Origin: Deltaproteobacteria bacterium
Lineage (GTDB): Bacteria > JAUYMQ01
DNA: 6,257 nucleotides
Assembly: GCA_030698575.1 (NCBI GenBank)
Contig: JAUYMQ010000422.1
Location: forward strand, 1 to 6,257
Direction: 5' to 3'
Shown: one piece after another, positions 273 to 6,257 of the stretch
Layout: each line of letters opens with the position of its first letter
Numbering within the stretch: the stretch's first letter is position 1
Translations under genes and position numbers: made by a program
Notes under the pieces: model-generated
What the model saw: the letters and a program-made list of their open reading frames with translations, nothing else
Database searches by the model: none
Told to the model about the DNA's origin: nothing

Positions 273-326
273 ACGCATGTCATTGCGAGGCCCGAGGTCC
301 CGCGCGAAGCGTGGGCCGAGACAATC
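273..326. repeat. Dispersed hairpin repeat, copy 1
   Basis: The block starts ACGCATGTCA and later contains CCCGAGGTCCCGCGC, then a 3-base loop, then GCGTGGGCCGAG. The same arrangement recurs at 4611-4670. Here the hairpin is 299-305 (CCCGCGC) paired with 309-315 (GCGTGGG) around a GAA loop, with one G-U pair. The outer text (TGTCATTGCGAGG ... ACAATC) resembles the widespread short intergenic repeats of the 'gtcattgcgag...gaagcaatc' type found in many bacterial genomes. It lies between the stop of the upstream gene and the tRNA promoter. It may act as an RNA 3'-end structure or simply be a non-autonomous repeat. Confidence 0.6.
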
Positions 327-344
327 ATAGCAACGGCGGCGCGC

Positions 345-419: not shown

Positions 420-506
420 GCCGGAGTGGTGAAACTGGTAGACGCGCGGGACTCAAAATTCCGTGGGGGCAACCCCGTGTGGGTTCGAATCCCACCTCCG
501 GCACCA
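420..506 (+). tRNA. tRNA-Leu (anticodon CAA)
   Basis: The sequence folds as a class II tRNA with a long variable arm. The acceptor stem is GCCGGAG (420-426) paired with CTCCGGC (496-502), seven perfect pairs, followed by discriminator A503 and an encoded CCA at 504-506. The anticodon stem is CGGGA (447-451) with TTCCG (459-463). The loop CTCAAAA (452-458) carries anticodon CAA at 454-456, which reads UUG (leucine). The variable arm pairs GGGG with CCCC at about 466-475. The T arm is GTGGG-TTCGAAT-CCCAC. All expected elements are intact, so this is the functional copy. Its 3' portion is partly duplicated at 2387-2438. Confidence 0.95.
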
Positions 507-517
507 GGAATTTTTTT
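507..517 (+). terminator. T-tract after the tRNA-Leu gene
   Basis: A run of seven T (511-517) begins four bases after the tRNA CCA and lies just before the end of the converging methyltransferase gene (525). No separate hairpin precedes it, so it is a possible but unproven stop signal for the tRNA transcript. Confidence 0.35.
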
Positions 518-524
518 CTGAATC

Positions 525-1229
525 TCAGGTAGTCAGGGAGCGTTCCGGGGCCGAGGCCGGAATGTCGCCCTTCCTCCGAAGCACCGCATAGCGATGTCCG
601 GAGAAGAGGCGCGACATCGGGACGGAGCGGACTACATCGAAGCCCGCAGACCGGGCAAGCGCCGCCACCTCGGACGGATGGAGAGTCCGCTTGGCGCGCT
701 TGCCATTGAACCGACGGTTGAATTCCCGCAGACGGTTCTTGAGGGACGTCTGGTCGAAATAGGTGAATACCAGCCACTTGCCGCTCACCCGCATCACCTC
801 CCAGACGTACTGAATTCGCTCTGCGTGCTCCCCGATGTGATGACAGAGACGAACAGACAACACGAAATCGAAGGCGCGGTCGATAAATGGAAGAGTAAGC
901 GCAGTCCCCCTCACGAATCCCGAAGCCGGCCCCGGACTATTCCCGCTACTCGCCGAAAGGCGCGCCTCCAGGAGCATGTGGAAGCTCCAGTCGCCTTCGA
1001 CTACACGGTCCGCGACCTCCCGGACAATCGGGTACAAGCGCCCGCATCCGCAGGGCAGGTCCAGAGCGACGCCAGGCACCTTTTCCACTCCCGCCGAGTG
1101 GAGGAGCCGCCGAAGGAGCCGTTGTTCATTCCAGTCGTTGATGCGTTCCGTCCATCGGCGATCGAACTTGCCGACATAGTCCGTCGCACCTTCGGGGCTG
1201 TTGTAGCGACTGAGCGTCTTCTCATCCAT
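525..1229 (-). CDS. Class I SAM-dependent methyltransferase
   Basis: A predicted soluble 234-residue protein that would transfer a methyl group from S-adenosylmethionine; the acceptor is unknown. The Rossmann-fold motifs are in order. Motif I is ALDLPCGCGRL at 55-65, a version of the glycine-rich SAM-binding loop. An acidic stretch VVEGDWS (76-82) sits at the end of strand 2. GTALTLPF (108-115) is followed by FDFVLSVRLCHHI (120-132), the strand-4 region with the 'HHI' often seen in UbiE/Methyltransf_11-like enzymes. The ATG at 1229 is preceded by AAAGG at about 10 bases, inside the last codons of the kinase gene. The stop of that gene is only 6 bases upstream, so the two are almost certainly cotranscribed. 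The partner suggests a lipopolysaccharide or other glycan acceptor, but this is inference. The last 15 or so residues look unstructured. The gene converges on tRNA-Leu. Confidence 0.85.
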   Translation of the reverse strand: MDEKTLSRYNSPEGATDYVGKFDRRWTERINDWNEQRLLRRLLHSAGVEKVPGVALDLPCGCGRLYPIVREVADRVVEGDWSFHMLLEARLSASSGNSPGPASGFVRGTALTLPFIDRAFDFVLSVRLCHHIGEHAERIQYVWEVMRVSGKWLVFTYFDQTSLKNRLREFNRRFNGKRAKRTLHPSEVAALARSAGFDVVRSVPMSRLFSGHRYAVLRRKGDIPASAPERSLTT

Positions 1230-1235
1230 GCGGTA

Positions 1236-2162
1236 TCAACCTTTGATAGAGGAAGCGGTCCGGATTCCCAGAAACTTTCTCACGACGCGTTTCCCGCGAT
1301 GGACCAGCGCGGAAAGGAGTGTTCGGTTCTGGCTCGCCAGCATCGCGCGTTCTACGCGCCTGCGAAGCGCGTCAGGTGAGGCCCGGAGAGGGTCAGGCAG
1401 ATAGCCCTCGTAGAACGCATCCTGATCGCCGCGGGTCAGGCTGCCCGGCGGGAAACCGCCCAGAAACATACCAAGGTCGCGGCCTTGAGCCCAGCGCGAC
1501 AGCGGGCGGGTTGGCAGCGATCGGGCATAGGGCACGTCGATGAAGAACGGCTCGGGCTGTTCCGCGCCCTTCCGTCGCATGAGGATGTTCTTTGGTTTTC
1601 CGGTAAACAGGAAGAAGCGCGCTGCATGACACCGGCGAAACGCCTCGCCAATCCGCCGAAAAACCTCCCCGCTCCCGGGGCGCGGTCCCGGTGTGGCTCG
1701 TTCCTCCTCTCGACTCCATTCCTTGAGATCGAGAGCATCCTCGACAAAAATGGTCATGAGAAAGCAGGAACGCACAAATCCGAACCGGCTTCGCTGAAGC
1801 CCGAACCCGACGGGTTCGACCGCCTGAACACCGAGGCGGTGGAGGTGGAGAAGTCCGTTGAACTCTTGCTCGGCCTTCGCAATTCGCAGCCAGGTTCTTA
1901 TACGCGGAGCGAATGGAAACCTGTATTCCTTCAAGATGAAGCGTTGCTCGTCCGCTTCAGCTGCTCCCACGGCCAGCCGGAGAAGGACAATGCGGGTGCG
2001 TCTCTCCAGCTTCAGAACCTTCCCCCGCGCACCCACGAAGGCCGCGTAGTCAGCGAAGAGTGTCGCCGGGAAGTAGGCGGAGAACTCCTTCCTGAATGCG
2101 ACGCGCCACCCTTTTCCATGGATGGCGCCTGGTTCATCACCGGGGTTGGGCGTGGTTTTCAT
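1236..2162 (-). CDS. Lipopolysaccharide kinase (KdkA/WaaP/InaA)-like protein, possibly catalytically altered
   Basis: A 308-residue protein with the outline of the small kinases that phosphorylate Kdo or heptose in the lipopolysaccharide core. The ATP-site lysine is probably K78 in RFILKEY, followed by a helix with E98/E100 (KAEQEFNGLLHLHRLGV). The catalytic-loop region is HAARFFLFTGKPKNIL (179-194), then FFIDV with D209 as the likely metal-binding Asp, and RDLGMFL (228-234). Lined up with the usual H-x-A-G-x-x-H-R-D-x-x-x-K-N-I-L pattern, H179 and N192 are kept but the HRD triplet becomes L-F-T, so the catalytic Asp appears to be Thr187. It may be inactive, use another residue, or belong to a divergent subfamily. 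I chose ATG 2162. A longer form from TTG 2267 adds 35 residues unlike the family and would start upstream of the transcription start implied by the candidate promoter. The methyltransferase follows after 6 bases. Confidence 0.75.
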   Translation of the reverse strand: MKTTPNPGDEPGAIHGKGWRVAFRKEFSAYFPATLFADYAAFVGARGKVLKLERRTRIVLLRLAVGAAEADEQRFILKEYRFPFAPRIRTWLRIAKAEQEFNGLLHLHRLGVQAVEPVGFGLQRSRFGFVRSCFLMTIFVEDALDLKEWSREEERATPGPRPGSGEVFRRIGEAFRRCHAARFFLFTGKPKNILMRRKGAEQPEPFFIDVPYARSLPTRPLSRWAQGRDLGMFLGGFPPGSLTRGDQDAFYEGYLPDPLRASPDALRRRVERAMLASQNRTLLSALVHRGKRVVRKFLGIRTASSIKG

Positions 2163-2252
2163 CGTCGTGCGATTCCTGATTTCACGCGGCCGGCCACCTC
2201 GACCCTGAACTTGACGAAGAAACACCCTATCGCGCCACCCGCTGCAGGAAAC

Positions 2253-2280
2253 AATGTACAAGGTCAACCGAGACCGTCAA
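2253..2280 (-). promoter_or_regulatory. Candidate promoter of the kinase-methyltransferase operon
   Basis: Read on the - strand, TTGACG (2280-2275) is followed after 16 bases by TACATT (2258-2253). They match the -35 and -10 consensus at five and four of six positions. A start near 2246 would leave a leader of about 84 bases to the ATG at 2162. It sits inside the tRNA-bounded block, so the cassette would carry its own promoter. Unproven. Confidence 0.35.
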
Positions 2281-2386
2281 ATGGATATCCGTCAATGACC
2301 ACGACTGCTCCGGGACGCACCGGAAGGTACACGGGAGCATGATTCTTGCACGCTTGAAAAAGCTCCGTGGATGTGGGCGGGATGGT

Positions 2387-2438
2387 CTCAACCCCCTGAG
2401 GGCAACCCCGTGTGGGTTCGACTTCCCCTCCGGCACCA
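2387..2438 (+). pseudogene. Degenerate 3' fragment of tRNA-Leu (right-hand att-like repeat)
   Basis: Bases 2400-2421 are identical, 22 of 22, to 467-488 of the tRNA-Leu gene (variable arm to T loop). Bases 2428-2438 are identical to the acceptor 3' strand plus CCA (496-506). Between them is a substituted stretch one base shorter than in the gene. Likeness may extend back to CTCAA at 2387-2391, the anticodon-loop text, with a 2-base shorter spacing. The T stem no longer pairs well (GTGGG against TCCCC) and no 5' half is recognisable, so it is not a working tRNA. The 342-base gap 2163-2504 holds this fragment, the candidate - strand promoter and the leader of the next gene; I see nothing else in it. 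Confidence 0.85.
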
Positions 2439-3270: not shown

Positions 3271-4611
3271 ATGAGCACGCTTCCGCCGGGTCCCCGGCTG
3301 CCCCGCGTCATTCAGATCTACCGCTGGCTACGCTACCCCGTGGACTTCCTCGAGGGGTGTGCGCGCCGTTACGGCGACGTCTTCACGCTCCGCTTTCCCA
3401 AGACTCCACCCCTCGTGGCCTTCAGTGATCCCGAAGCCGTGAAGGAGATGTTCACGGGCGATCCCGACGTCCTGCACGCGGGCGAGGCCAACATCATCCT
3501 CGAGCCCCTCATGGGGCAGAATTCGCTGCTGCTCATCGACGGCGAGCGGCACCGCCGCGAGAGGCGGCTCATGACGCCCCCGTTCCGCGGCGACCGCATG
3601 AAGGCCTACGGTGCGACCATGCGGGAGGCCGCGAACCGCAGCATCGATGCCTGGCCCGTGGGCACGCCCTTCCCCATCCACGAGCAGACGCAGGCGATCA
3701 CCCTCGACATCATCTTCAAAACAATCTTTGGAATGGAGGAGAGCCCGCGGCTCGCCACCCTGCGCGACGGCCTGGTGCATGGCCTCGCGCTCGGCTCCAA
3801 TCCGATCTACCTGCTGCCGATCTTCCGGAGAAACTTCGGGCCGCTCACGGCCTGGCGCGAGATCGCGCAGATGATGCGCGATTCCGACGCGATCCTCTTC
3901 GAGGAGTTCGCGCGGCGTCGCGCCGAGGGCACGTCGGGCCGCGACGACGTGCTGTCGATGCTTCTCGACGCGCGGGATGAGGACGGTCGCGCGATGACCG
4001 ACCAGGAGCTGCGCGACCAGATGGTGACCCTCATGGTCGCGGGGCACGAAACCACCGCGACGGCGCTGGCCTGGGCCGTGCACCGCATGCTGGCGCACCC
4101 CGAGGCGCACGCCCGGCTGCGCGCTGAGATCCAGGAGGCGGGCGGCGGCGGCCCCGTCGACGCCGAGGGCGCCGGGCGGCTCGAGTATCTCGACGCTTTC
4201 ATCAAGGAGACGATGCGCCTGAATCCGATCATCCCCTTCGTCGCCCGCCTGACCAAGCAGCCCGTGAAGATCGGCGGCCACGAGATTCCCGCCGGCGTCG
4301 TCGTCGCCCCCGCCATCTACCTCACCCACCGCCGACCCGACGTCTGGCCCGATCCGCTGCGTTTCGATCCGGAGCGATTCATCGGCGCGCGCCCGAACCC
4401 CTACGCCTACTTCCCCTTCGGCGGCGGCACCCGGCTGTGCATCGGGGCCGCTTTCGCCACCTATGAGATGAAGATCGTCCTGGCTGAAATCATCCGACGG
4501 ACGTCGCTCCAGCCTGCTCCGGGCCACACGGTCCGGATCGTGCGGCGAAGCATCACCTTCGCCCCCTCGGGCGGCGTGCCCGTCGTGATGGAGCGGCCTG
4601 CCACGTCATAA
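3271..4611 (+). CDS. Cytochrome P450
   Basis: A complete 446-residue haem-thiolate monooxygenase, normal length for a soluble bacterial P450. The start MSTLPPGPRLPR is the proline-rich entry typical of the superfamily, and no membrane anchor is seen. The oxygen-binding I-helix motif is AGHETT (257-262). The K-helix ExxR is E313-T-M-R316, the PERF-type motif is FDPERF (365-370), and the haem loop is FPFGGGTRLCIG with C390 as the axial ligand. It probably oxidises a hydrophobic small molecule using electrons from a ferredoxin and reductase, neither of which is encoded nearby, so the substrate cannot be named. A TTG at 3226 would add 15 residues; ATG 3271 fits the family better, although no clear ribosome site precedes it. 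The last base of its TAA stop is the first base of repeat copy 2. Confidence 0.95.
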   Translation: MSTLPPGPRLPRVIQIYRWLRYPVDFLEGCARRYGDVFTLRFPKTPPLVAFSDPEAVKEMFTGDPDVLHAGEANIILEPLMGQNSLLLIDGERHRRERRLMTPPFRGDRMKAYGATMREAANRSIDAWPVGTPFPIHEQTQAITLDIIFKTIFGMEESPRLATLRDGLVHGLALGSNPIYLLPIFRRNFGPLTAWREIAQMMRDSDAILFEEFARRRAEGTSGRDDVLSMLLDARDEDGRAMTDQELRDQMVTLMVAGHETTATALAWAVHRMLAHPEAHARLRAEIQEAGGGGPVDAEGAGRLEYLDAFIKETMRLNPIIPFVARLTKQPVKIGGHEIPAGVVVAPAIYLTHRRPDVWPDPLRFDPERFIGARPNPYAYFPFGGGTRLCIGAAFATYEMKIVLAEIIRRTSLQPAPGHTVRIVRRSITFAPSGGVPVVMERPATS

Positions 4612-4670
4612 CGCATGTCAATCCGAGAAGGGCCGCCCGAGGTCCCGCGCAAAGCGCGGGCCGAGGAGAC
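4611..4670. repeat. Dispersed hairpin repeat, copy 2
   Basis: Shares ACGCATGTCA (4611-4620) and the core CCCGAGGTCCCGCGC (4636-4650) with copy 1 at 273-326, with a few extra bases between the two blocks. The hairpin is perfect here: CCCGCGC (4644-4650), loop AAA, GCGCGGG (4654-4660). It starts at the last base of the P450 stop codon. No T run follows, so it is not a standard rho-independent terminator, but it could protect or define the 3' end of the P450 mRNA. Confidence 0.6.
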
Positions 4671-4725
4671 CTTAAGGCCCGGCGCAAGCATTGCAAAACT
4701 CCCCCCGTTCCGGTTCAATGGCAGG

Positions 4726-4816: not shown

Positions 4817-5833
4817 ATGGCCAGTGTGCCGCTTCCGGTCCTCGGTTCCACCATCTTCGGCCCGGCCACCGAGGCCGAGCCCGTGGCCGGGGGAGAGTTC
4901 GGTTTCGTCCGGCCCGAGCACGCCGAGTTCCCTCCGATCCTCATCATCGCGGTGACCAACGTCTGCGACATGGCCTGCATTCACTGCGCCCATCCGGTCA
5001 TCAGCCAGGACCCCGACTACAAGGGAAAGATGATGGACCCGGCGATCCACACCCGGATCGTCGAGGAGACAAAGCGATTCAAGGATCAGCTCTGGGTCTT
5101 TCGCTACGCGGCCGACGGCGAGTCGCTCCTGCACCCCAGGTTTCTCGACTTCGTTGATGAGACCAAGCGCGCGGGCATCGGCCCGGTCGATCTGACCACG
5201 AACGCCATGACGCTCACCGAGAAACGAATGCGTCGCCTTCTCGAGGCGCCGATCGACGTGATCGACGTGAGCCTCGACGCCTTCAAGAAGGAGAGCTACG
5301 AGAAGATCCGCATCAAGGGGAAGTTTGACGTCGTCGTGGCCAACACGCAAAAGCTCATCGATATGCGGAACGCGATCGGATCGCCCACCAAGATCATGGT
5401 CAGCATCATCCAGCAGAAGGAAGCACTCGACGAGGTCGAGGCCTTCAAGGCGTTCTGGGGGCCCAGGGTCGACGAGGTGCTGGTCCGCGGGCTCAACACG
5501 GATCTCGACATCGTCAACGTGAGCGAGGTGTACTTCAAGAAGGGCCTCACCCGCTGGCCCTGCCCGCAGTTCTGGAAGCGGGTCACCATCAACTACAACG
5601 GCGACGTGCGTTTCTGCGTGGAGGATTGGCGGAACAACGGCGTCGTGGGGAACGTGTGCGATCAGGGCATCCAGGAGATCTGGAAAAGTGAGGCCTACGA
5701 GAAGTTTCGGAAGCTGCACAGTACCGGCCGCTGGGGCGACATCAAAATGTGCCAGCCCTGCCGTGACTGGCAGCACATGGAATGGGACCACGGTTTCGAG
5801 AAGGCCATCAACAAGGTCATGAACCGCGAGTAA
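4817..5833 (+). CDS. Radical SAM protein with SPASM-type C-terminal domain
   Basis: A 338-residue enzyme that should cleave S-adenosylmethionine at a [4Fe-4S] cluster to make a 5'-deoxyadenosyl radical. The cluster motif CxxxCxxC is C50-D-M-A-C54-I-H-C57. The partial TIM barrel follows, with RYAADGESLLHP near 95-106 (the 'GGEPLLHP'-like SAM-contact segment), DLTTNAM, and DVIDVSLDAF. The C-terminal part has C249-x12-G-x4-C267, the first half of the SPASM signature, then C281 and C312-x-x-C315, enough for an auxiliary Fe-S cluster. The later cysteines of a full SPASM domain are missing. SPASM enzymes modify peptides, proteins, sugars or cofactors. The Gfo/Idh/MocA gene 64 bases downstream favours a sugar or small-molecule role (inference). 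ATG 4817 has AAGGA at 4806-4810, six bases upstream; a TTG at 4781 is less likely. Confidence 0.9.
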   Translation: MASVPLPVLGSTIFGPATEAEPVAGGEFGFVRPEHAEFPPILIIAVTNVCDMACIHCAHPVISQDPDYKGKMMDPAIHTRIVEETKRFKDQLWVFRYAADGESLLHPRFLDFVDETKRAGIGPVDLTTNAMTLTEKRMRRLLEAPIDVIDVSLDAFKKESYEKIRIKGKFDVVVANTQKLIDMRNAIGSPTKIMVSIIQQKEALDEVEAFKAFWGPRVDEVLVRGLNTDLDIVNVSEVYFKKGLTRWPCPQFWKRVTINYNGDVRFCVEDWRNNGVVGNVCDQGIQEIWKSEAYEKFRKLHSTGRWGDIKMCQPCRDWQHMEWDHGFEKAINKVMNRE

Positions 5834-5840
5834 CCCGCCG

Positions 5841-5858
5841 GCCCGCGCCCTCGCGGGC
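5841..5858. other. GC-rich hairpin between the radical SAM and dehydrogenase genes
   Basis: GCCCGCG (5841-5847) pairs with CGCGGGC (5852-5858) around a four-base loop, eight bases after the radical SAM stop codon. No T tract follows, so read-through into the next gene is likely. It could be a partial terminator or an mRNA-processing or stability structure. Confidence 0.3.
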
Positions 5859-5897
5859 GGCTGTCCGGACGTTCGAATCGACGGAGGTCAGGCGAAC

Positions 5898-6257
5898 TTG
5901 GCAGCAAATCCCCCCGAGCAAGGCGCCGTCTGCGTGGCCGTCATCGGGTGCGGCTACTGGGGCCCGAACCTCATCCGGAACTTCAGCGCGCTCGGCCGGA
6001 CGGACCTGAAGGCCGTCTGCGACCTCGACCCGGAAAAGCTCGCCCGCGTGAAGGGCCGCTACCCCGCGGTCGACCTCCACCAGGACCTCGGGCGCCTTCT
6101 CGACGACCCCTCCATCGACGCCGTCGCCATCTGCACCCCGGTTCATACCCACTTCCCGATTGCCTCCGCCGCCCTGAAGGCCGGCAAGCACGTGCTGCTC
6201 GAGAAGCCGCTCACCCACAGCACCGAGACCGCCCAGGCGCTCGTCGATCTGGCGGCG
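5898..6257 (+). CDS. Gfo/Idh/MocA-family NAD(P)-dependent oxidoreductase (5' part)
   Basis: The frame is open to the window edge and shows the first 120 codons of a dinucleotide-dependent sugar dehydrogenase or reductase. The Rossmann loop is VIGCGYWGPN (GCGYWG at 17-22), followed by the acidic end of strand 2 in CDLDPEK. AICTPVHTHF comes next, and EKPL (102-105) holds the lysine (K103) that is catalytic in this family. The GYWGPNL variant is common in family members that act on nucleotide sugars in polysaccharide loci, so a UDP-sugar substrate is plausible but not shown. The start is TTG 5898, supported by GGAGGT (5883-5888) nine bases upstream. A GTG at 5934 would cut into the dinucleotide-binding strand. 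It is in the same direction as the radical SAM gene with a 64-base gap, so they may be cotranscribed. Confidence 0.9.
   Translation, partial: MAANPPEQGAVCVAVIGCGYWGPNLIRNFSALGRTDLKAVCDLDPEKLARVKGRYPAVDLHQDLGRLLDDPSIDAVAICTPVHTHFPIASAALKAGKHVLLEKPLTHSTETAQALVDLAA

Follow-up and report, generated by a model that had tools for sequence, protein, structure and literature searches.

The segment that separates the tRNA-Leu(CAA) gene of this contig from a decayed copy of its own 3' end is probably an old, integrase-less remnant of an element that targeted tRNA-Leu(CAA) and carried a two-gene envelope operon, and remnants of this class are a common kind of genomic scar. The window analysed comprises 6,257 nucleotides and is one whole short contig (G000:C343) of a metagenome-assembled genome of 4.13 Mb in 653 contigs, with a contamination of 4.6%, which is the sole representative of its phylum among the genomes compared. 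The segment and its boundaries comprise the following features.

420-506, plus strand: intact tRNA-Leu(CAA) (ARAGORN; Rfam RF00005, 53.3 bits), the 3' end of which is the would-be attL side
461-506, plus strand: tRNA 3' segment that is repeated downstream (variable arm, T arm, 3' strand of the acceptor, CCA); presumed attL core region
525-1229, minus strand: class I SAM-dependent methyltransferase of 234 aa, encoded by the second operon gene, with an intact DLPCGCGR motif (Pfam PF08241)
1236-2162, minus strand: Kdo/WaaP (InaA-like) kinase-fold protein of 308 aa, encoded by the first operon gene (Pfam PF06293)
2253-2280, minus strand: weak sigma-70-like promoter match, TTGACG-16-TACATT, upstream of the kinase gene, by consensus match alone (9/12)
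2394-2438, plus strand: decayed repeat of the tRNA-Leu(CAA) end, restricted to its 3' part; presumed attR, corresponding to the original 3' end after displacement

The first-pass annotation had described the 3' part of tRNA-Leu(CAA) as recurring downstream in decayed form, and the alignment bears this out. The decayed copy, 1.9 kb downstream of the tRNA, aligns with tRNA positions 461-506 over 46 columns with four mismatches and one 1-nt gap (~89% identity). Identical blocks extend over 22 bases (467-488 and 2400-2421) and 12 bases (495-506 and 2427-2438), and the copy ends with CCTCCGGCACCA, identical to the tRNA end. The local alignment score of 82.5 exceeds those of all 200 dinucleotide shuffles (40.1 +/- 3.5, maximum 54). 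The 21-mer core has exact matches in the whole assembly at the tRNA and the decayed copy only, while one more site, with three mismatches, lies inside tRNA-Leu(GAG). Rfam detected no second tRNA in the window, and the decayed copy is predicted to be non-functional as a tRNA because changes in the variable arm and T arm disrupt pairing. The 22-nt identity breaks off before the acceptor segment, and the repeats thus do not constitute a clean att pair today. Copies that comprise only the 3' part of a tRNA and end at CCA are usually the signature of integration targeted to the tRNA, and are not what a decayed tandem gene would be expected to leave.

The same boundary was sought at other tRNA genes. 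When the 41 tRNA genes of the source genome were scanned for a downstream copy of their own last 45 bases, tRNA-Leu(CAA) was the sole gene with such a copy, the other strong downstream scores all falling on adjacent tRNA-Arg and tRNA-Ser genes. The search of 20 tRNA-Leu(CAA)-type loci in other genomes, extending as far as 12 kb downstream, found no such copy (best score 40 versus 72 here). The earlier suggestion that the segment is one of many alternative cargoes at this tRNA site thus finds no counterpart at the genome's other tRNAs or at the tRNA-Leu(CAA)-type loci checked. A class II tRNA-like gene on another contig of the source genome (L144 3831-3918, G000:C376) is called tRNA-Glu(CTC) by ARAGORN, yet is 74% identical to tRNA-Leu and ends in CACCC; it may be a tRNA of the Leu type, a pseudogene or contaminating sequence.

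The two enclosed genes are separated by six bases and, as previously proposed, run opposite to their neighbours, being on the minus strand while the neighbours are on the plus strand. Their assignment as an envelope-type kinase and a methyltransferase also holds, with matches to PF06293 (E 1e-10, 41.7 bits versus a gathering cut-off of 21.3) and PF08241 (E 6e-9), respectively. A candidate promoter of their own can be located (2280-2253), but the match is weak. The lower GC content noted at first is real in relation to the neighbours (0.607 versus 0.659) but does not extend to a foreign composition: within the source genome the two genes lie between the 12th and 16th percentiles for GC and between the 23rd and 41st for codon fit, against a small background of 88 genes in which three sampled contigs read as N. 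The two genes are thus below their immediate neighbours yet ordinary for the genome, and do not look foreign. Deviant composition is a usual but not required feature of tRNA-integrated islands. An origin of the genes from a plasmid or phage was rejected: the kinase had no matches in plasmids, phages or viral contigs, and the methyltransferase had distant matches in plasmids only, with none in phages or viral contigs. PADLOC gave no convincing match to a defence system.

That the two genes are bounded by tRNA-Leu sequences without an integrase of their own was confirmed, as no PF00589 integrase was found in the contig. A search for an integrase relic inside the segment gave no convincing candidate, the best match (E 0.001) falling within the two known genes. 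The segment retains no gene for an integrase, excisionase or relaxase and no phage gene, which counts against reading it as an element. The remainder of the source genome contains 14 PF00589 matches, and one of these, an integrase gene on the minus strand of C397 (453-1688), is separated by 173 bp from a perfect copy of the tRNA-Lys(CTT) 3' end, as follows.

L153 1862-1909 (G000:C397): copy of the tRNA-Lys(CTT) 3' end, 48/48 nt, beside the tyrosine integrase gene
L131 884-959 (G000:C399): intact tRNA-Lys(CTT) gene

Such integration therefore happens in this lineage. The tRNA-Lys(CTT) case appears to be a more recent integration, at a different tRNA of the source genome. Both loci display a 3' tRNA copy of the kind left by integration. 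However, the tRNA-Lys(CTT) copy is identical at all 48 positions and has the integrase adjacent to it, whereas the tRNA-Leu copy is decayed and the integrase is absent. Further integrases of the source genome adjoin tRNA-Ile(GAT) and tRNA-Met. In two viral contigs, ~11 bp separate the end of an integrase gene from an incomplete tRNA-Leu 3' end, which matches the last 30 bases of the present tRNA at all defined pattern positions (one position being open). Because of these integrase-tRNA cases in the genome and in viral contigs, tRNA-end integration that leaves partial copies is recognised both in the lineage and at tRNA-Leu ends generally. In E. coli, tRNA-Leu(CAA) corresponds to leuX, which is well known as a site of islands. 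The present locus documents the scars of tRNA-end integration in a lineage with a single representative among the genomes compared.

We infer that an element once integrated at tRNA-Leu(CAA), with the 3' end of the tRNA serving as attachment site. The copy of that end brought in by the element would have restored the tRNA, forming attL (461-506), while the displaced original end would have stayed at the far side as attR (2394-2438) and, being free of selection, decayed there. The integrase would since have been lost together with nearly all other genes, or the segment may never have carried them and may have been moved by an integrase acting in trans. The leftover would be the kinase-methyltransferase operon, transcribed from the far side toward the tRNA. 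Such a remnant resembles CIMEs and other integrase-less island remnants, in which an intact tRNA and a repeat of its 3' end likewise enclose nothing but cargo, although the present segment is very small (1.9 kb, two genes) and its right end is decayed. This contrasts with autonomous elements (prophages, ICEs, IMEs, tycheposons), which carry their own integrase.

The best-surviving alternative, which we consider unlikely, is that the fragment derives from an ancestral tandem tRNA-Leu, an origin already raised in the first-pass annotation, or from a local partial duplication of the tRNA, and that the two genes entered between the copies in some other way. tRNA clusters do occur in the source genome, and the ordinary composition of the two genes would fit such an origin. 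However, the 5' half of the tRNA (before position 461) could not be traced upstream of the fragment (p 0.30 for local and 0.44 for semi-global alignment), even though the 3' part is still well conserved; the relatives checked have a single tRNA-Leu(CAA) gene; and the confinement of the copy to a 3' part terminating in CCA is typical of integrase attachment.

It is very unlikely that the pair belongs to a live non-autonomous element (a CIME-like element or satellite), still moved by a tyrosine integrase that is encoded elsewhere and recognises the tRNA-Leu end. The att-like ends, together with an integrase absent inside but represented 14 times elsewhere in the genome, are what such an element would display. 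In contrast, the right end has accumulated four mismatches and an indel, a second att copy is absent from the assembled genome, and none of the genome's integrases is known to use tRNA-Leu(CAA). An old remnant is favoured over an active satellite because the right end is decayed. That two loci were joined at the 22-nt repeat during assembly, or that the contig is a contaminant, is barely credible, for while the genome is a contaminated assembly in many pieces and the window an entire short contig, repeats are present at both ends of the segment and not at one join, the GC content fits the genome, and assembly k-mers are usually longer than 22 nt.

The same ordered kinase-methyltransferase pair was found in five other genomes (L086, L119, L120, L121 and L122), in agreement with its original description as an operon, with identities of 31-46% for the kinase and 51-60% for the methyltransferase, the latter being truncated by the contig end in L122. 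As read from the sequences, the neighbours of the pair include a creatininase-like gene and PilT-like ATPases as well as nuo-like genes, and others are PsiE, PMT_2 and isochorismatase. A gene for a PsiE-family membrane protein precedes the pair in two genomes (L120 5696-6178 and L122 1438-1887), and a PMT_2 glycosyltransferase gene adjoins it in L121. No tRNA was detected near the five other copies on the stretches examined. The cargo is thus not tRNA-specific, since the five other copies are found in unrelated contexts with no tRNA detected nearby; nothing in them connects the operon itself with tRNA integration, a point against the remnant reading. The two genes form an operon that is conserved but sporadic and is not tied to tRNA sites, and its occurrence in differing chromosomal contexts suits horizontal transfer. 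Among 377 relatives of genome G042, a search performed without a positive control gave no match to the kinase.

The best guess, judged from sequence, is that the pair modifies a cell-envelope glycan, by phosphate transfer followed by methylation as in WbdD. In P. aeruginosa, the methyltransferase WarA partners the kinase WarB. WarA affects O-antigen length (PMC7168646), and WbdD of E. coli O9a is a fused methyltransferase-kinase chain terminator that caps the O antigen (PMC3482155). These systems share with the present operon a kinase and a methyltransferase that are encoded together, the action on a glycan being predicted here. However, in WbdD an active kinase forms part of a single fused protein, whereas here there are two genes and the kinase-fold protein lacks the catalytic Asp.

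A parallel in gene content is found in Pseudomonas, where the methyltransferase PP0903 and the lipopolysaccharide kinase InaA (PP0904) are encoded downstream of colRS and regulated by ColR (PMC2689224). In both cases a class I methyltransferase gene adjoins a gene of the Kdo/WaaP family. The order is opposite, with the methyltransferase first in Pseudomonas and the kinase first here; identities are low (26-29% for the methyltransferase and 22-23% for the kinase); and the linkage to colRS contrasts with the absence of a linked two-component system here. Plasmid copies of the methyltransferase-InaA pair adjoin dgkA, PAP2 and LTA-synthase genes. A small, sporadic kinase-methyltransferase operon of several genomes is thereby linked to the Pseudomonas pair.

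Alignment of the six kinase orthologues revealed that K78, E100, N192 and D209 are invariant, while in all six the HRD motif has T, A or R in place of its catalytic Asp. Pseudomonas InaA similarly lacks this residue, presenting a Cys at the position. The chemistry of the kinase is uncertain because the usual catalytic Asp is absent, and its activity may be non-canonical or lost. A single-sequence AlphaFold model of the kinase (mean pLDDT 35.6) was too poor for use. The loss of the catalytic Asp, common to the kinase-fold partners, poses a concrete, testable question on how the pair works. We give little credence to the proposal that an integrase-free two-gene cassette is moved in trans by the integrases of other elements, spreading the envelope operon between phyla, or that the kinase-fold partner works without the catalytic Asp through a chemistry undescribed for WaaP kinases.

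Beyond the segment, one further feature of the window served for comparison with relatives.

4817-6257: radical SAM/SPASM protein beside a Gfo/Idh/MocA oxidoreductase, a pair kept together in L025-L028

The nearest relatives identified through the radical-SAM gene (L025-L028) encode proteins that are 64-73% identical, and synteny followed from this gene was restricted to the radical-SAM and Gfo/Idh genes alone. The tRNA-Leu(CAA) loci in the genomes of three relatives have different neighbours, with no synteny at the tRNA. A dispersed intergenic repeat, TGTCATTGCGAGG...GAAGCGTGGGCCGAG, is present at window positions 274-329 and 4611-4690, and more copies, 83-94% identical, lie on six or more of the genome's other contigs.
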